48,893 bases of DNA from the NCBI GenBank assembly GCA_027485645.1, contig JAIXQR010000006.1:1-48893 (forward strand), written 5' to 3'. This DNA is from a bacterium (GTDB taxonomy: Bacteria > Armatimonadota > Fimbriimonadia > Fimbriimonadales > Fimbriimonadaceae). The notes under the pieces were generated by a model that saw only the letters and a list, made by a program, of their open reading frames with translations, was not told the origin of the DNA and made no database searches. Shown in pieces: positions 35,241-46,938 of the stretch; position 1 is the stretch's first letter, and each line of letters opens with the position of its first letter. Position numbers and translations under genes: made by a program.

Positions 35241-36212
35241 ATGAAAGGAATCGGGAAAAAGCTTATTGCTGCGGGCGTTTTGTGCCTGTTCAGCGCCTTC
35301 GCGAATGCCGGGACTCTAACCGTGCAGTCCCCAACTGCCAACGCCTTCCTTGGGCAAACCAACACGCTGCGATTTATCATTACCGGGGCTAAGCTGGAAG
35401 TCACGGTGAAGGCTGAAATTACGGGGCCAACCGGAACAACGACCATCGAGCGCAAGTTCACGCCGGATGGCGACGGCGAGATTTCGAACAGCCTTTCGCT
35501 GAACTTTAGCGAGACGACCTTGGAAGGTGACTATTCGATCAAGGTTTCGGCGACCGAGCCTGCCAATACGTACGAACCAACCACGATTCCGGTCAAGGTC
35601 GACGTGAAGGCACCGAAGGTGCTCGAGTTCTATCCGGCCACGGGACAGCACAAGCGAGGCACAGTGAAAATTCGGGCCCGACTCCAGGAGCCGAACTTGA
35701 AGAGTTGGGAAGTCCTGGTCAACGATCAACCGATCGCGAACAACACGGGAAGCACTACCGACGTTTCGGTCGATTGGAATACGGCAGGTATCGCTCGAGA
35801 CGGGAATCAGTCGATCAGTTTGAAAGTTACGGATGAGGCAGGGAACGAAACTAGCCGGTCCGTAAACATCACGCTCGACCGAGTTCAGCCAACCGTGACC
35901 ATCGTATATCCGCAGGCTGGAAACCGCATTACACCGCAGACGACGATTCCGGTGATCGTCGATATTGCCGACGCCTCCACCAGTTCCGTGGACGTAACGG
36001 GGGTTGAAGTCGTGCTGCGAAGGATGGACGGGACCTACCTGGCAACAGTGGCCCGCGTTTCGATTACCAACCAGGGAAGTACGACCCTGCGATGGACCGG
36101 CCGAATTCGCAGTAGCATTCCGCTACCCAGTAAGTTTAAAGTTGTGGTGGACTGCATTGACAAGGCAGGAAACCGGGCGACGAAACAAGAAGTTTCAGTC
36201 ACCATCGGTTAG
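35241..36212 (+). CDS. Secreted Ig-like-domain protein
   Basis: A 323-residue exported protein with a signal peptide (KKLIAAGVLCLFSAFANAGT). Three beta-sandwich repeats are visible: residues ~25-125, ~130-215 and ~220-320, each of Ig-like/cadherin-like type (e.g. ISLKVTDEAGNETSRSVNIT and FKVVVDCIDKAGNRATKQEV). No catalytic motif. Excellent Shine-Dalgarno (CAGGAGGG). It is followed by a porin-like gene after ~47 bases and probably belongs to the same secreted-protein unit. Confidence 0.8.
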   Translation: MKGIGKKLIAAGVLCLFSAFANAGTLTVQSPTANAFLGQTNTLRFIITGAKLEVTVKAEITGPTGTTTIERKFTPDGDGEISNSLSLNFSETTLEGDYSIKVSATEPANTYEPTTIPVKVDVKAPKVLEFYPATGQHKRGTVKIRARLQEPNLKSWEVLVNDQPIANNTGSTTDVSVDWNTAGIARDGNQSISLKVTDEAGNETSRSVNITLDRVQPTVTIVYPQAGNRITPQTTIPVIVDIADASTSSVDVTGVEVVLRRMDGTYLATVARVSITNQGSTTLRWTGRIRSSIPLPSKFKVVVDCIDKAGNRATKQEVSVTIG

Positions 36213-36259
36213 TCGCGCCGTTCGACGTTCGCACGTCGTCCGGAATCAAGGAGAGATTG

Positions 36260-37426
36260 TTGACGAACAGGAAGTTCATCGCGTTCTATGGAACGTTTAT
36301 ATTGGTTGGATCGGCTTCGGCACAAGTGCCGGACCTTTTGAACGCGTTTGACTCGGGTGCCCGATCGCAAGGTGCTGGCGGTGCGCTCAATGGTGCGGCG
36401 GCCGACACTTACTCCACCGTTTACAATCCTGCCGGTCTTGGGTACGTCAATCGCCCGACGTTGCAGCTTGGACAGCGCAATCTTCCCTCGACCCGAACCG
36501 CGGTGACCGGAACATTTAACGATCAAAACCGTACAGCAACCCGGCGAAACGGAAGTACCAGCTTTGTCCATTTTGGCTACGCCATTCCTGGGAGTGCGAT
36601 TCGGAAGGGTGAGAAGGGAAGCTTCGGAGTCAGTTACAGCATTACCGGCCTAGTGGATGACCTCGCGACGGCCACCGGCGACCTGACTTTTGCCCCCGGT
36701 GTGCGGGTTCGCGACTTTACGGAGACCAAACGAGTCCGAACGGACTTCCTGTCCCTCGGCTATGGACGAACGAACGCTGCGGGCAATCTGGCCGTGGGTT
36801 ACGGCATCGTCTTCGCAAATCAATCTTTGACCTTCCGGCAGACGGGGGCTCTGGTCGATGGGAACGGCGATCCTATTTCGGGTGGTCCGTCGGTCATCAG
36901 CTTCCCGAATGTGAAATCTCAAACTTCGGGAGTCGGAGTCATGGCGGGTGTGCAGTATTCGCCGCCGAAAAACCCGAATGCCAGTTTCAACGCGAGCGTT
37001 CGCAGCCCGATTCGGGTTGGCGGCGGTGGATCAGGGGTTAACTTCAGCACGATTCCGGGCCGTTTGATGCTGGGCGCGGCACTTCGGTATGAGGGATACC
37101 GCAAGGGCAAAGATGACTATATGGTCATCGGCGCTAACACGCAGTTCTTCTTTGGTGGTCAAGGCAGCTCTGACTTTGAACGCGGGAGCCAGGCAGGGTT
37201 TGGGCTTGGTTTGGAATACAACTTCGACTTCGGGCGAACTCGGGTCCCGGTTCGGTTGGGCTACCAGACGATTGGATCGACGGGAACCGGCTACGACAGC
37301 TACCAGACCTTGACCTACGGAATCGGATATCAGCCGGGTGACGGTCGGTACACGATAGACTTCAGCTACGCGCGGCCCCGGTCTGGCGGGCAAGACACTT
37401 ACATTACGGCGACGTACCGATTTTAA
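36260..37426 (+). CDS. Outer-membrane porin-like beta-barrel (FadL/PorV-like)
   Basis: A 388-residue protein with a signal peptide ending near GSASAQ. The segment DSGARSQGAGGALNGAAADT, then YSTVYNPAGLGYV, is the N-terminal hatch seen in FadL/TodX and PorV-type barrels. Alternating strands follow, and the protein ends in ITATYRF with a terminal Phe. The start is TTG at 36260, spaced 6 bases from AAGGAG; the adjacent TTG at 36257 is too close to it. It is 2 bases upstream of the pseudo-caspase gene, so one transcript is likely. Confidence 0.78.
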   Translation: MTNRKFIAFYGTFILVGSASAQVPDLLNAFDSGARSQGAGGALNGAAADTYSTVYNPAGLGYVNRPTLQLGQRNLPSTRTAVTGTFNDQNRTATRRNGSTSFVHFGYAIPGSAIRKGEKGSFGVSYSITGLVDDLATATGDLTFAPGVRVRDFTETKRVRTDFLSLGYGRTNAAGNLAVGYGIVFANQSLTFRQTGALVDGNGDPISGGPSVISFPNVKSQTSGVGVMAGVQYSPPKNPNASFNASVRSPIRVGGGGSGVNFSTIPGRLMLGAALRYEGYRKGKDDYMVIGANTQFFFGGQGSSDFERGSQAGFGLGLEYNFDFGRTRVPVRLGYQTIGSTGTGYDSYQTLTYGIGYQPGDGRYTIDFSYARPRSGGQDTYITATYRF

Positions 37427-37428
37427 CC

Positions 37429-38793
37429 ATGCGAATTCTTCCTGTTCTTTGCGTTTTGATTCTGGCTTCGGTTGGGCACGCGCAGGCGTGGAAGGATAAC
37501 TATGAGCGCGGTCTGACGCTGGCAAAGGCGAACGACTGGTCTGCGGCGCGGATGGCCTTCAAGGACGCGCTTAAGACGCGTCCGAACGATGAGTCGATTG
37601 CGACCCCGTTTCCTGGACCGATTACCGAGCGCCGGGTCTGGCGCGGTGGATCCCCATATTCGGCGAACCTGTTGGCTGCGTATAGTGCCATTCGACAAGC
37701 CGCTCGCCTCGAAGAGAAGGCCGCTCAAGATGCACTGCTGAAGGAAGCGCAAACCGAACTTGAAAACTCGCTGACCAAGCGTCAGGCAGGAAGCAATGCC
37801 GTGTTCTTGCTGGGTGAGGTCTACACGATGCTCGGCTTGGCCGATAAGCGGGTTGAGCTTCAGCAGAAGGGGATCAACCGGAACTGGCGAGAAGATACCG
37901 AGATCATTGCGCCGGAGCAGATTGCGATTGTGAACCCGACCGGGAACTCTGCGACGACGCCTACGAATCCGCCCACCAACCCACCGACTAACCCTCCCAC
38001 GAACCCGCCAACGAATCCTCCGACGACTCCCGTGACCAATCCTAACGCGGGGACTACGGGGCAGGCACCGGTGGTGGGTGGAGTTCAGACGCTTTCGAAC
38101 AAGTTCGCCTTGATCATCGGTAACTCTGAATCGGGCCTGGGTGAGTTGAACTTGCCGTTTGCGGTGAACGACGCTCAGTTGGTCGCGCAGGAGATCAACA
38201 TGTATGGCGGCTACCCGAAGGAGAACATCGTGGTGGTCGAGAACGCCACCGCCGATGTCATGCGGCAGAAGATGACGGAGCTGGCGGCGCGAGTGCCGGC
38301 CAAAGCTACCGTGATGATTTACTTTAGCGGCGTTGGATCGAACGTGAACGATCGGGACTACTTGGCGGGTACGGATGCCACTGGTTTGTTGGATACGGCC
38401 CATATGCTCTCGAAGGCAGAGCTGTACCAAGCCTTTGCCGCGCGGGAAGCCGTTGTGTTTGGCTTCTTCCAGGCGAACCGGCCAGAGCGAACTCCGACCC
38501 GCGTGTTTGGCTACGAGCTGCCGACGGCCGGGGCGTATTCGCAGTGCCAGGCGACTTTTGCGGGTGGATCGGTTTATAGCTTGGTGCGGAACGGGAAGCC
38601 GGTCGGCGTTTACACCGATGCGTTTGTCGCGGTTCTTCGTGAGTTCCGGACCAACCAGATTCCGATTATCGAGTTCGGCTGGAAGGTTTTCTACAGGGCT
38701 CGACGTGGCGAGAACGGCACGACCGGCGGCAGCGCGGTCCAAGCTCCGACTTTGCCTGAGTTGAACCTGTTGGGTTCAGACGCGCGCTTTTAG
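37429..38793 (+). CDS. Secreted caspase-fold protein with lost catalytic residues
   Basis: A 454-residue exported protein. After a signal peptide (PVLCVLILASVGHAQA) come a TPR-like repeat region (YERGLTLAKANDWSAARMAF and onward), a proline-rich linker of five NPPT units (~residues 179-198), then a peptidase C14 (metacaspase-like) domain starting FALIIGNSESGLGELNLPFA. In active members the strand after the linker reads YFSGHG; here it reads YFSGVG, so the His is replaced by Val. The expected D-A-C-x-S-G reads VFGFFQANRPE, with no Cys. The domain therefore looks catalytically dead and may be a binding module. It overlaps coaX by 18 bases in the opposite direction. Confidence 0.8.
   Translation: MRILPVLCVLILASVGHAQAWKDNYERGLTLAKANDWSAARMAFKDALKTRPNDESIATPFPGPITERRVWRGGSPYSANLLAAYSAIRQAARLEEKAAQDALLKEAQTELENSLTKRQAGSNAVFLLGEVYTMLGLADKRVELQQKGINRNWREDTEIIAPEQIAIVNPTGNSATTPTNPPTNPPTNPPTNPPTNPPTTPVTNPNAGTTGQAPVVGGVQTLSNKFALIIGNSESGLGELNLPFAVNDAQLVAQEINMYGGYPKENIVVVENATADVMRQKMTELAARVPAKATVMIYFSGVGSNVNDRDYLAGTDATGLLDTAHMLSKAELYQAFAAREAVVFGFFQANRPERTPTRVFGYELPTAGAYSQCQATFAGGSVYSLVRNGKPVGVYTDAFVAVLREFRTNQIPIIEFGWKVFYRARRGENGTTGGSAVQAPTLPELNLLGSDARF
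37963..38022 (+). repeat. Five 12-base repeats encoding (Thr-Asn-Pro-Pro)5
   Basis: Five tandem 12-base units encode the linker of the pseudo-caspase. The units differ at third codon positions while the peptide is identical, so selection appears to hold the TNPP sequence rather than recent slippage having made it. Confidence 0.8.
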
Positions 38794-41779: not shown

Positions 41780-42012
41780 CGGATCGAACCCTGATCAAAC
41801 ACCTTTCGGCGCTGTCAAGGCCGACAAGCGGACTGGGCCCGCTCGGAACAGGCAACATGATCACGGAAAAGCAACGATGCACGAAAATGCAGGGCACTCG
41901 CGACGGCTCTAGTAAAGGCACGTGCTCAAGATGACCGAGAAGTGAACGGAGATTGTTCATACTCGAAGACCTTCACTTGGAAGAGTTTGCCCAAAGTCAC
42001 GAAACAGGAAAC
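41780..42012. other. Gap between the GRIFG array and the restriction gene, no gene seen
   Basis: No convincing coding region or terminator is visible. The restriction gene's reading frame is open for 60 bases upstream of the chosen start, but has no good start site. Whether the array and the restriction gene share a transcript cannot be settled from sequence. Confidence 0.4.
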
Positions 42013-45000
42013 ATGAACGACAATACTCCCATCATTACGCTTCAGATCATCCTTGATCAGCTTCGCGAGGATGCGCGCAATAATCGGGACTTAGGGGATC
42101 GGTTTGAACGACTGATTCAACAGTACTTGCGGGTAGATCCACTGTATTCGGCGCTCTATTCGCAGGTTTGGATGTGGAATGAATGGCCACTGAAAGGGCA
42201 GGTCGGCGACGTCGGTATAGACTTAGTAGCGCAGGAGCGGGCCACTGGCGAGTACTGCGCAATTCAATGCAAGTTCTACTTGCCCGAGCACACAGTCAGT
42301 AAGGCGGACTTAGACTCGTTTTTCACTGCTCTAGGCAAGCCACTTATCAGCAAAGGGCTCATTGTTAGCACGACCGACAAGTGGGGAAAGAATGCGGATG
42401 ACGCGCTTGACCAGACGAAGCCCGTTAATCGGATCGGAATAGCTGACCTTGAGCAGAGCCCAATTGACTGGACGCAATTCGACATCAGCAAACCGGGGCA
42501 ACTCAAGCGCAAGGCAAAGAATACGATACGCCCGCACCAGGCGGAAGCGCTCAAGGATGTGATGGATGGGCTGGCGGACGCAGACCGAGGCAAGTTGATC
42601 ATGGCCTGCGGGACAGGAAAGACGTTTACGGCCCTGAAGATCGCCGAAACGCTGGCGACGAAGCTTGCCGGGGAAGATCGACCCGGACACGTGCTGTTCC
42701 TCGTACCTTCGCTATCGTTGATGTCACAGACGCTCAAGGAATGGGCAGCGCATAGTGAAGTACCTCTTCGTAGCCTGGCGGTGTGTTCCGACGTGTCTAT
42801 TGGCAAGCGCAGGGTGAAGGACAGCGAGGATTCCGCTGAGATCACGGTTTACGATCTGCCGTATCCAGCGACGACGAGTAGCAAGCAACTGTTGCATTAC
42901 TACAATTTGTTGACTCAGGCCCCTCAACAAGGGAAGAGCAACAGTGGTTTGCTCGTGGTCTTTTCCACCTATCAGTCTTTGGAGGCGGTTTCCAAGGCGC
43001 AGATAGCTGGGCTTCCTGAGTTCGACCTTATCATTTGTGACGAAGCTCACCGAACGACTGGAGTAACGCTGAGCGGGGAAGATGAGAGCAGCTTTGTCAA
43101 GGTCCATGATTCGAATTTTCTAAAGGCGACCAAGCGGCTGTACATGACGGCAACGCCACGCATCTATGGAGACGATGCGAAGACGAAAGCGAAGCAAGCC
43201 ACGGCGGAGTTGGCATCGATGGACGATGTGTCCCTGTTTGGGCACGAACTTCACCGACTTGGATTTGGCGAGGCAGTCGGGAAATCACTCTTGGCTGATT
43301 ACAAGGTTTTGGTCCTTGCGGTTGATGAGGCGTACGTCAGCAGGACTTTTCAAGCACAGCTTGCCAGTAAGGACAACGAGTTAGCACTCGAGGATGCGAC
43401 AAAAATTACTGGCTGTTGGAATGGGTTGGAGAAGCGTTTCCAGGCTTCGAAAAGTGACGTCGATCTGCAAGGGGACCTTGATGCCATGCGGCGTGCGGTG
43501 GCGTTTTCACGATCGATCAAGGATTCCAAAAGATTTGTCGATCAGTTCACTCAACTCGTAGCGGCCTATAAATCGGACCACCCGGATACGAACGTACTGG
43601 AGGTTGAGGCGGATCACGTCGACGGAACTTTTGATGCCCTAAAACGAGGAGCATTGCTTGAGTGGCTGAAAGCCGAATCTCCTACAAATACTTGCCGAAT
43701 ACTCTCTAATGCCCGATGTCTTTCTGAAGGCGTTGACGTACCGGCGCTTGATGCGGTGCTCTTCCTTAACCCACGCAATAGCGTTATTGATGTCGTACAG
43801 TCGGTCGGTCGCGTCATGCGAAGGGCGGAAGGCAAGAGATACGGATACATCATCCTCCCTATCGGGATTCCAGCGGACAAGACACCAGAAGAAGCACTTA
43901 AGGACAATGAAAAATACAAAGTCGTGTGGCAAGTGTTGCAAGCCCTTCGCGCGCACGATGACCGCTTTAACGCCACGATAAACCAGATTGAGCTAAACAA
44001 GAGCCGTCCCGATAACATTGAGGTGATTGGGGTAACTGGCCCTCCAGATGATGATGGAGGCAAACCGGACAACGGCAAGCCAGAAGATGGGAAGCCACAA
44101 GTGCGGCCAGTGCAGGGAGCGTTTGCGTTTCCGAATCTTGACGAATGGAAAGACGCCATCTATGCGAAGATGGTCATGAAAGTTGGTGACCGGGCTTATT
44201 GGGAAACTTGGGCTCGGGACATTGCTAGGATCGCGGACGCACATATCACACGAATCAAGACGTTGCTCGATGATCCAAAGACGGAGCACTCGAAGGCCTT
44301 CGATGTCTTTCTGAAAGGATTACAGCAAAATTTAAATCCAGCCGTATCGAAGCAGGACGCGATAGAAATGCTCGCGCAGCATCTGATAACGAAGCCAGTC
44401 TTTGATGCACTTTTTGCCAACTATTCGTTTACGCAACATAACCCGGTCAGCCAATCGATGCAGCAGATGCTTGATTTGTTGAACGAGCAGTCGATTGACA
44501 AAGAAGCGGAGAAACTTGAGAAGTTTTACGCATCGGTGCGCGACAGAGCAAAGGGGTTGGACAATGCAGAGGCGCGACAGAAAGTCGTAATCGAACTGTA
44601 CGACGAATTTTTTAGGAATGCCTTTCCACGCATGGCCGAACGATTGGGCATCGTGTACACGCCTGTCGAGGTTGTCGATTTTATCATTCATTCAGTGGAA
44701 GAAATTTTGCGGCATGAATTTCACAGCGGGCTGGGCGAAGACCAGGTGCACATTATTGATCCGTTTACGGGCACTGGCACCTTCATGGTACGCCTGCTAC
44801 AGTCCGGACTAATACCGACAGATAAGCTATTTTCGAAGTATAAGAACGAGATGCACGCTAACGAAATCGTGCTTCTTGCTTACTACATTGCGGCGATCAA
44901 CATCGAAGAAGCATTTCACGGTTTACTCATGCCTGATGAAATGGAACAGTACGTGCCATTTGAAGGGATTGTACTTACGGATACGTTCCAACTTAATGAA

Positions 45001-46938
45001 ATGGAGCAGTATGCTTTCGAAGGTACGTTCCCCGAAAACAGCGCTCGCGTTCAGCGACAAAAAGACAGTCCCATCCGGGTCGTGATCGCGAATCCACCGT
45101 ACTCAGTTAACGATAATCCCGTACCTTATCCTGCACTAGACTCGCGCATAACAAAAACTTATGTGCAGCAATCAACGGCGACTCTGAAGAACAGTCTTTA
45201 TGATAGTTATATTCGGGCCTTCCGATGGGCCAGTGATCGCATCGAGGACAAGGGAGTCGTTGGATTCGTCACGAACGGATCGTATATTGATGGTAGTGCT
45301 GCGGATGGACTGAGAGCTGCGCTCTCTGCGGAATTCACGAGCATATATGTTTTCAATTTGCGTGGAAATCAACGAACGAGCGGCGAACTTTCTCGCCAAG
45401 AAGGTGGAAAAATCTTTGGCTCAGGTAGTCGAGCACCGATCGCCATCACTTTGCTTGTCAAGAACCCGTCTAAGACCCGGCCAGCTATTATTATGTACTA
45501 TGACATAGGGGATTATCTTAAGCGAGACGAAAAGTTGAAAATAATCAGAGACCTGAAAAGTATCGGAGGCATCTATGCTAGGGATGCTTGGACGATTCTT
45601 CAGCCTAATGACGCTAACGACTGGATTAATCAACGTGATCCAGCATTTGACCGATTTATTCCGCTAGGTGCTAAGTCCGGGGACCGTAGCCTAGTCATGT
45701 TCGCAACATACTCCAGTGGCGTTAAGTCGAATAGGGATGCGTGGGTTTACGGGTTCTCGCGCGAGACGGTCGGAACGGTCATGGATCAAATGATAAAATC
45801 TTACAATGATCAAACCGAACGATTGGAAAAGGCGAGGCAGGATTTAGGTGACCACACACAAATCTCTGTCAGTAACGTTATTGACGTAAATGCCAAGGAG
45901 ATCAGCTGGACTGCAGAGTTAATACGAGACGCTGATCGCGGAAAACTGCATAGCTATCGGCCGCATTTGCTGCGTAAAGCAATGTATCGGCCATTTTGTA
46001 AGCAATGGCATTACTTTGATACTAATTTCAACAACCGCCTCTATCTCATGCCCCGTCTGTTTCCTCAGCCAGACTCAAGCAATTTAGTGATCACAGTTAA
46101 TGGAGTTGGAGCATCTACCCCGTTCTCCGCATTAATCGTTTCGGAGGGACCAAATCTTCACATGCTGGACACGGGGCAGTGTTTTCCACTATACGTGTTT
46201 GAGAAAGCGGAAGAAAACTTAGGTTTGGATTTGGGACAAAGTGACGGCGTCACCTTAGGTAATTTTCGGCGGATCGAAGGTATTTCAGACTCGACATTAC
46301 TGACTTTTAATAGCGCTTATGGGACAGAGATCGAGAAGGAAGATATCTTCTACTATGTCTACGGAATACTACACTCTTTGCAATACCGATATCGCTTTGC
46401 CGCGGACCTTAAGAAGATGTTGCCAAGGATTCCCTTGACCAAAGAGTCGAAAGACTTTTGGCATTTTAGTCAGGCGGGTCGTGAATTGGCTCAGTGGCAC
46501 CTTAACTATGAGACAGTGGATCCATGGCCGATTGTTGAACACCGGGCAACGCTGGACTACGATCAGTGGGATCTCTTTAAAGTGCAGAAGATGACGTTTG
46601 CCCGCCCCACAGCCGTGCAAAAAGCTGCGGGCGAGAAGTGGGACAAGACTCAAATCATCTATAACAGCCAAGTTACGCTGAAGATGATTCCTTTGGAGGC
46701 CTACGAGTATGTTGTGAACGGGAAGCCCGCGATTGAGTGGGTAATGGAGCGGTACCAAGTGAGCCGGGACAAGGACAGCGGAATCTTGAACGACCCTAAC
46801 GACTGGTGCAGAGAGCACGATCAGCCTCGATACATCGTGGATCTGATTGGGCGGATTGTTCGGGTCAGCATCGAGACGATGAAGATTGTGAAGGGACTGC
46901 CGCCACTCAACGAGATCGTCGACGGCTCGCCAGAGTGA
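42013..46938 (+). CDS. Type ISP restriction-modification enzyme (LlaGI/LlaBIII-like)
   Basis: A single polypeptide of 1641 residues that combines nuclease, translocase, methylase and target recognition. An Mrr-like PD-(D/E)XK nuclease lies at the N-terminus (GDVGIDLVA with Asp70, then AIQCK with Gln85 and Lys87). The SF2 helicase has Walker A MACGTGKTFTAL (~197), DEAHR (~343), MTATPR, RCLSEGVDVPALD, and motif VI QSVGRVMRRAEG (~596). A helical coupler follows, then an N6-adenine methylase with motif I DPFTGTGTF (Asp916) and NPPY (1027). The C-terminal ~450 residues are the target-recognition region. In this family one chain methylates one strand and cuts after translocation and collision. ATG 42013 has AGGA upstream. 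Lower GC than the flanking genes suggests horizontal transfer. Confidence 0.93.
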   Translation: MNDNTPIITLQIILDQLREDARNNRDLGDRFERLIQQYLRVDPLYSALYSQVWMWNEWPLKGQVGDVGIDLVAQERATGEYCAIQCKFYLPEHTVSKADLDSFFTALGKPLISKGLIVSTTDKWGKNADDALDQTKPVNRIGIADLEQSPIDWTQFDISKPGQLKRKAKNTIRPHQAEALKDVMDGLADADRGKLIMACGTGKTFTALKIAETLATKLAGEDRPGHVLFLVPSLSLMSQTLKEWAAHSEVPLRSLAVCSDVSIGKRRVKDSEDSAEITVYDLPYPATTSSKQLLHYYNLLTQAPQQGKSNSGLLVVFSTYQSLEAVSKAQIAGLPEFDLIICDEAHRTTGVTLSGEDESSFVKVHDSNFLKATKRLYMTATPRIYGDDAKTKAKQATAELASMDDVSLFGHELHRLGFGEAVGKSLLADYKVLVLAVDEAYVSRTFQAQLASKDNELALEDATKITGCWNGLEKRFQASKSDVDLQGDLDAMRRAVAFSRSIKDSKRFVDQFTQLVAAYKSDHPDTNVLEVEADHVDGTFDALKRGALLEWLKAESPTNTCRILSNARCLSEGVDVPALDAVLFLNPRNSVIDVVQSVGRVMRRAEGKRYGYIILPIGIPADKTPEEALKDNEKYKVVWQVLQALRAHDDRFNATINQIELNKSRPDNIEVIGVTGPPDDDGGKPDNGKPEDGKPQVRPVQGAFAFPNLDEWKDAIYAKMVMKVGDRAYWETWARDIARIADAHITRIKTLLDDPKTEHSKAFDVFLKGLQQNLNPAVSKQDAIEMLAQHLITKPVFDALFANYSFTQHNPVSQSMQQMLDLLNEQSIDKEAEKLEKFYASVRDRAKGLDNAEARQKVVIELYDEFFRNAFPRMAERLGIVYTPVEVVDFIIHSVEEILRHEFHSGLGEDQVHIIDPFTGTGTFMVRLLQSGLIPTDKLFSKYKNEMHANEIVLLAYYIAAINIEEAFHGLLMPDEMEQYVPFEGIVLTDTFQLNEMEQYAFEGTFPENSARVQRQKDSPIRVVIANPPYSVNDNPVPYPALDSRITKTYVQQSTATLKNSLYDSYIRAFRWASDRIEDKGVVGFVTNGSYIDGSAADGLRAALSAEFTSIYVFNLRGNQRTSGELSRQEGGKIFGSGSRAPIAITLLVKNPSKTRPAIIMYYDIGDYLKRDEKLKIIRDLKSIGGIYARDAWTILQPNDANDWINQRDPAFDRFIPLGAKSGDRSLVMFATYSSGVKSNRDAWVYGFSRETVGTVMDQMIKSYNDQTERLEKARQDLGDHTQISVSNVIDVNAKEISWTAELIRDADRGKLHSYRPHLLRKAMYRPFCKQWHYFDTNFNNRLYLMPRLFPQPDSSNLVITVNGVGASTPFSALIVSEGPNLHMLDTGQCFPLYVFEKAEENLGLDLGQSDGVTLGNFRRIEGISDSTLLTFNSAYGTEIEKEDIFYYVYGILHSLQYRYRFAADLKKMLPRIPLTKESKDFWHFSQAGRELAQWHLNYETVDPWPIVEHRATLDYDQWDLFKVQKMTFARPTAVQKAAGEKWDKTQIIYNSQVTLKMIPLEAYEYVVNGKPAIEWVMERYQVSRDKDSGILNDPNDWCREHDQPRYIVDLIGRIVRVSIETMKIVKGLPPLNEIVDGSPE

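Follow-up and report, generated by a model that had tools for sequence, protein, structure and literature searches.

A catalytically dead, apparently exported caspase-fold protein encoded beside a FadL-superfamily barrel in Fimbriimonadales

The window analysed here, a whole stretch of 48,893 nucleotides from a Fimbriimonadaceae contig, carries a three-gene set on the plus strand, the third gene of which (37,429-38,793) encodes a 454-aa protein with a C-terminal caspase fold that lacks both residues of the catalytic His-Cys dyad. The fold has been kept, the dyad has been lost throughout the family, and the gene is mostly linked to those of an outer-membrane barrel and an immunoglobulin (Ig)-like protein; the product is therefore probably a binding part and not an enzyme. 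The reading favoured here, with moderate confidence, is that of an exported pseudoprotease retained as a binding adaptor or gate that works with the barrel in the envelope.

Domain organization and predicted export

The first 19 residues of the pseudocaspase (37,429-37,485, plus strand, as are all features of the set) resemble a signal peptide, both in the sequence and in a heuristic scan, and Q19 is kept in 51 of the 53 rows of the conservation table, which was derived from 60 rows by removing fragments and near-duplicates (the family alignment, A1, has 52 rows). Across the family, the N-terminus is hydrophobic in 47/52 members and has an AxA/AxG-type site as well in 38/52, as scored with our own heuristic and not with SignalP. 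The signal-like N-terminus of most members agrees with the export proposed in the first-pass annotation, and the protein is apparently exported; that annotation had placed it outside the cell, and a periplasmic or outer-membrane-associated site is at least as likely. Residues 20-168 (37,486-37,932) form a helical, TPR-like domain in the AlphaFold model, with W21, Y25, W71, G74, Y77, A84, Y85, and D156 invariant in the 52-row alignment. The TPR-like repeats reported at first thus find a counterpart in these helices, although the TPR_9 profile reaches 20 bits against a Pfam cut-off of 35. The following linker (residues 169-222; 37,933-38,094), recognized by its low pLDDT and its dN/dS, contains the previously noted NPPT repeats at about residues 177-203 and is modelled as disordered, with pLDDT below 50 at residues 171-196 and 198-216.

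The catalytically dead caspase-fold domain comprises residues 223-454 (38,095-38,790), as indicated by Pfam, the model, and dN/dS. Peptidase_C14 (PF00656) matches residues 225-407 with E=3.1e-10 and a score of 40.6 bits (cut-off 21.4), and a phmmer search of PDB sequences returned nothing below E 0.09. The AlphaFold model, built from the 52-row family alignment, has a mean pLDDT of 86.4, and residues 222-454 superpose on caspases, best on the paracaspase MALT1 (Z 23.6, rmsd 2.8, 208 aligned; Foldseek, VIA-align), indicating that the C-terminal domain is a caspase fold. Sequence and fold both assign the protein to C14, and the C14-like domain described in the first-pass annotation is clear from the Pfam score and from the structural model.

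Loss of the catalytic dyad

In place of YFSGHG the protein has YFSGVG, with V302 (38,332-38,334) at the position of the catalytic His, and in the Cys strand, VFGFFQANRPE, the sequence D-A-C-R has become Q-A-N-R, with Q348 at the Asp, A349 at the Ala, and N350 (38,476-38,478) at the Cys, followed by the invariant R351. N350 is assigned to the Cys position because alignment to active domains converts D-A-C-R into Q-A-N-R, and the same register was obtained with MAFFT (together with 21 active domains), HMMER, and hhalign, the last as a moderate match (probability 67%, E 5e-5). A first register, which placed the Cys at 349, was dropped after these alignments. Both motif readings and the boundaries of the open reading frame stand as originally given, as does the claim that both catalytic residues are replaced, except that the Cys position is taken by N350 and not by the Q or A first proposed.

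The loss extends over the family. Both sites are spanned by 58 members, a count that takes in the window protein and near-duplicates but not L057 and L058, which fall short of one or both sites. In these 58, position 302 is never His and shows 11 residue types (V 22, A 15, T 4, P 4, S 4, Q 3, N 2, and four others once each), and position 350 is never Cys (N 24, S 11, D 9, P 5, H 4, A 3, R 2), so that the His-Cys dyad is kept in 0/58 family members. Position 348 is Q in 43 and E in 15, and R351 is invariant (58/58). A Cys occurs at 349, the Ala of DAC, in two rows (L003 and L039) and in the fragment L057, and L051 has a His two residues past the conserved Gly, off the catalytic place. With V302 and N350, the window protein itself lacks the catalytic dyad of peptidase family C14.

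Retention of the dyad elsewhere was tested on 18 fetched and scanned C14-bearing loci outside the dead family, 17 of which have both GH and D-x-C motifs; the remaining one (L165) has GHG and no D-x-C within 90 residues. The 21 active domains used with MAFFT provide no such test, since they were chosen by these very motifs. The sole further C14 gene found by search in the window genome (L072) reads FYFCGHG and VDACRN.

Selective constraint, phylogeny, and distribution

The nearest relative is 96% identical, and comparison with it gives dN/dS values of 0.037 over the gene as a whole, 0.018 in residues 217-454, and 0.20 in the linker (residues 171-216). Across 52 rows, 23 columns are invariant, including K225, D310, R351, W418, and the last residue, F454. 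This C-terminal Phe (38,788-38,790; 52/52) is a puzzling feature for a soluble domain. In a tree of 41 C14 domains, the 20 dead ones form a single clade with support of 100/98; the tree took 20 of the 51 prepared dead rows, has long branches, and does not single out a nearest active group.

Pseudocaspase matches were found in 61 of 101 genomes, the window genome counted, and a profile search of the phylum matched at least 119 of 291 genomes. Among the matches listed, all near-full-length ones fall within the window's order, Fimbriimonadales, and the weaker ones outside it cover chiefly the caspase part. Of the 48 matching named records, 46 bear Armatimonadota names (Fimbriimonadaceae, Fimbriimonas, Chthonomonas, etc.), one is labelled "archaeon", and one "bacterium". 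A match to the N-terminal domain in G246 was rejected as an ordinary TPR protein by sequence. Five larger genomes (4.9-6.5 Mb) of the window's own genus (G004, G005, G008, G013, and G019) have none of the three genes of the set at E<=1e-25.

Linkage to an outer-membrane barrel and an Ig-like protein

The first gene of the set (35,241-36,212) encodes a 323-aa Ig-like protein with a signal-like N-terminus and with Big_13 and Big_7 matches above the Pfam cut-off. The second (36,257-37,426), whose stop codon lies 2 bp before the pseudocaspase gene, encodes a 389-aa outer-membrane barrel of the FadL superfamily, as judged from its model (pLDDT 83.5; 14 strands of at least 8 residues) and from structural matches to E. 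coli FadL (Z 32), chains of Bacteroidota BAM complexes (Z 27-28), and chain F of the T9SS translocon entries 8gl6 and 6h3i (Z 25-26). Toluene_X scores 21.1 bits on this barrel, below the Pfam cut-off of 29.7, and 38.3 bits, above it, in L055. Within the N57-P58-A59 motif, which can be compared with the NPA motif named in the titles of FadL structure entries, the first two residues never vary and A59 hardly does. The barrel thus displays the features by which the FadL superfamily is recognized, namely a 14-strand barrel, an N-terminal hatch region, and the NPA motif, which it shares with FadL and with the FadL-type barrel of Bacteroidota BAM complexes, whereas its operon context with an Ig-like protein and a pseudocaspase sets it apart from both.

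A barrel gene on the same strand accompanies 54 of 60 pseudocaspase loci (in one case on the far side of an assembly gap), with a spacing between -85 and +35 bases in 51 of the 54, and at 50/60 loci the Ig gene is also present, on the same strand upstream of the barrel. The six barrel-less loci consist of four contig-end pieces (L024, L057, L059, and L060) and of two in G038 and G049, and a barrel search of these two whole genomes found none. At E<=1e-25, the 101 genomes, which are related by kinship and are not phylogenetically independent, divide into 55 with pseudocaspase and barrel, 40 with neither, three with the pseudocaspase and no barrel (G009, G038, and G049), and three with the barrel and no pseudocaspase (G094, and G007 and G063, whose contigs end inside the set); all three genes occur together in 53/101. 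In G169, a genome 77% complete, the pseudocaspase is present and the barrel was not detected. Together with G038 and G049, this indicates that pairing with the barrel is not obligatory, and such genomes suggest either some role of its own for the pseudocaspase or pairing with a different barrel.

Two further candidates were set aside. An apparent barrel-pseudocaspase fusion in G025 (an 842-aa open reading frame) crosses a 19-base N gap in the assembly and is an artefact. A fourth gene of about 280 aa, often located downstream of the pseudocaspase in relatives, was not counted in the system because it occurs in 53/101 genomes, including those of the pseudocaspase-less family f2, and had no match in the window genome. 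The genes of this conserved protein family of about 280 aa (L036:5103-5942 and homologues) often adjoin coaX in relatives, and the four members scanned have no Pfam match above the cut-off.

Counterpart sets elsewhere in Armatimonadota

A search of the phylum with the barrel profile led to three genomes of family f22 (G129, G132, and G133). G129 and G133 have the same gene order, with a protein of Ig repeats followed by a barrel homologous to that of the window and by a big third protein (1377 aa and 1519 aa, respectively), while G132 is in pieces, its contig beginning inside an upstream open reading frame that has no Ig profile match and its third gene lying seemingly over two contigs. In 3/3, the third protein has a C-terminal C14 domain with GHG and DACR intact; a search of 31 genomes of f22's order matched it in three. 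The f22 sets therefore resemble the Fimbriimonadales set in gene order, in the homologous barrel (3/3), in Ig repeats detected by profile (2/3), and in a C-terminal C14 domain, but differ from it in a far longer third protein with an intact dyad. Comparison of their N-terminal domain with that of the pseudocaspase is marginal (hhalign probability 3%, E 0.013), and the C14 tree does not unite the f22 caspases with the pseudocaspases; the two are linked by gene position and by the homology of their barrels and Ig repeats.

G063 has a second Ig-barrel set (contig C151; L177 and L194), the third protein of which bears an N-terminal domain related to that of the pseudocaspase (hhalign 92%, E 5.8e-7). 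This protein runs off the contig after 1077 aa; no Pfam match and no caspase were detected in that part, and it does not significantly resemble the third proteins of f22. G094 has two Ig-barrel pairs, and the genes after each pair have no detected caspase: a 339-aa and then a 924-aa protein in L170, and a sulfatase and then a TPR protein in L169. The sets of G063 and G094 indicate that a caspase is no fixed companion of this barrel type across the phylum.

Comparison with known systems

Klemencic et al. 2019 (PMC6426788) class 8.6% of the caspase homologues of bacteria as pseudo-orthocaspases. Alphaproteobacteria and Cyanobacteria account for 90% of these, and the dyads include YS, YA, FS, QC, and HA; the FS type of Rhizobiales carries TPRs, and a TAT-like N-terminus is mentioned for one modelled variant. 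An earlier survey (PMC3501461) gives an intact dyad for 84% of putative bacterial metacaspases and possible signal peptides for some. The Armatimonadota family shares the prokaryotic p20 caspase fold with a substituted dyad, as described in PMC6426788, but differs from the proteins described there in the free variation of positions 302 (V, A, T, and others) and 350 (N, S, D, and others), as well as in its signal-like N-terminus, its N-terminal TPR-like part, and its barrel and Ig partners. The Tyr-Ser-type replacement given there for the common clades does not apply, Tyr302 being found in none and Ser350 in 11/58. The string "Armatimonad" has 0 occurrences in the main text of PMC6426788, and our literature searches listed nothing on Armatimonadota caspases, pseudocaspases, or PorV. 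Pseudo-orthocaspases as such are already known; what is new here is a barrel-linked pseudocaspase family that is apparently exported.

The type IX secretion system offers a working analogy. Chain F of entries 8gl6 and 6h3i is presumably PorV, and PorU is a C25 gingipain-type protein. PorU-PorV and the present set would both combine a protein of caspase-like fold with a FadL-superfamily barrel and Ig-like modules, but the window protein belongs to C14 and not C25, and its catalytic residues are absent. The PorV_fam profile (NF033709) scores 27.5 bits on the barrel, against a cut-off of 90, and has no match at E<=0.001 in the window genome, with control Bacteroides likewise below the cut-off. 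A search for SprA matched 0/31 genomes and gave no match in the control genomes either. The T9SS C-terminal tail was not found in the window genome, and it matches in nine of the 31 genomes, five of them above the cut-off. Membership in the type IX system is not supported by these tests.

Proposed function and alternatives

In the proposed scheme, both catalytic residues would have disappeared from the C14 fold, in the simplest case a single time, ahead of the divergence of the sampled families f1, f3, and f5 of the order, and strong purifying selection would then have preserved the dead fold for binding. The helical N-terminal domain may dock on the barrel from the periplasmic side, and the dead cleft may grip, uncut, an extended segment of an exported partner, such as the Ig-like protein, a segment of the barrel, or cargo, whereby the pseudocaspase would serve the barrel as adaptor or gate. 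The putative binding or scaffold module of the first-pass annotation, which made no mention of the neighbouring barrel and Ig genes, fits a domain that lacks catalytic residues and is yet under strong purifying selection. Neither of the two outcomes given there as refuting it, a model that is no caspase fold or orthologues that retain the dyad, was observed.

The pseudocaspase could instead be a stand-alone binding or scaffold domain in the periplasm or at the surface, with the barrel and the Ig-like protein merely co-expressed neighbours, as G038 and G049, which have a pseudocaspase and neither a detected barrel nor a strong Ig match, would suggest. However, the three-gene linkage spans the order, and the barrel is also absent from 10 of the 11 pseudocaspase-less f1 genomes, which makes this reading rather unlikely. 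That the protein is a decaying pseudogene or carries a recent mutation has in its favour that both catalytic residues are gone, but the dyad is absent in all 58 of 58 members, no internal stops occur in the genome matches, and the dN/dS of 0.018 indicates a domain that is not decaying, so that the pseudogene reading is refuted by constraint and its residual probability is negligible.

An enzyme of another chemistry, with K225, D310, R351, W418, and E/D363 as a new active site, would account for the conservation of these residues, which are invariant apart from the E (47) or D (6) at 363 (n=53). However, the domain has no invariant Ser, Cys, or His, and R351 and the FG motif are present in active paralogues too, which suggests that they are probably structural; we regard such an enzyme as improbable. 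The regulator cFLIP, paired with an active caspase, provides the model for a further alternative, in which the pseudocaspase would switch an active exported caspase on or off. Several relatives do have C14 paralogues of about 1000 aa that bear a signal, keep the dyad intact, and could serve as such partners, but in the window genome the only other C14 gene found by search, L072, is very divergent and has no obvious signal by eye, and a pairing of this kind is quite improbable. The preferred reading is that of an adaptor or gate acting with the barrel.

Implications and further observations

Little is known of what dead caspase homologues do in bacteria. The present family is order-wide, strongly constrained, and has named neighbours; it would provide for prokaryotic pseudocaspases a function at the outer membrane that can be put to the test. 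The intact f22 set and the dead Fimbriimonadales set offer a natural comparison of protease and pseudoprotease, maybe within one envelope module. More speculatively, and by analogy with PorV-PorU, an outer-membrane module outside Bacteroidota might pair a FadL-superfamily barrel with a caspase-fold and an Ig-like protein, in which the f22 caspase would still be a protease processing exported proteins and the Fimbriimonadales slot would hold a non-cutting receptor or gate; we consider this extension doubtful.

Several C14 proteins of about 1000 aa (L149-L159, from G059, G025, G031, and others) have an intact N-terminal C14 domain and mostly a signal-like N-terminus by eye, and are possibly exported active caspases of Fimbriimonadales; two scanned members have weak TPR matches. 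The PADLOC "caspase" model gave weak matches to both C14 genes of the window genome, which were not counted as evidence of defence. Downstream of the set, positions 41,953-46,938 (plus strand) encode a 1661-aa protein to which the PADLOC model for type IIG restriction-modification gives 2221 bits and which lies in the lowest-G+C stretch of the window (0.48-0.53), perhaps an island.
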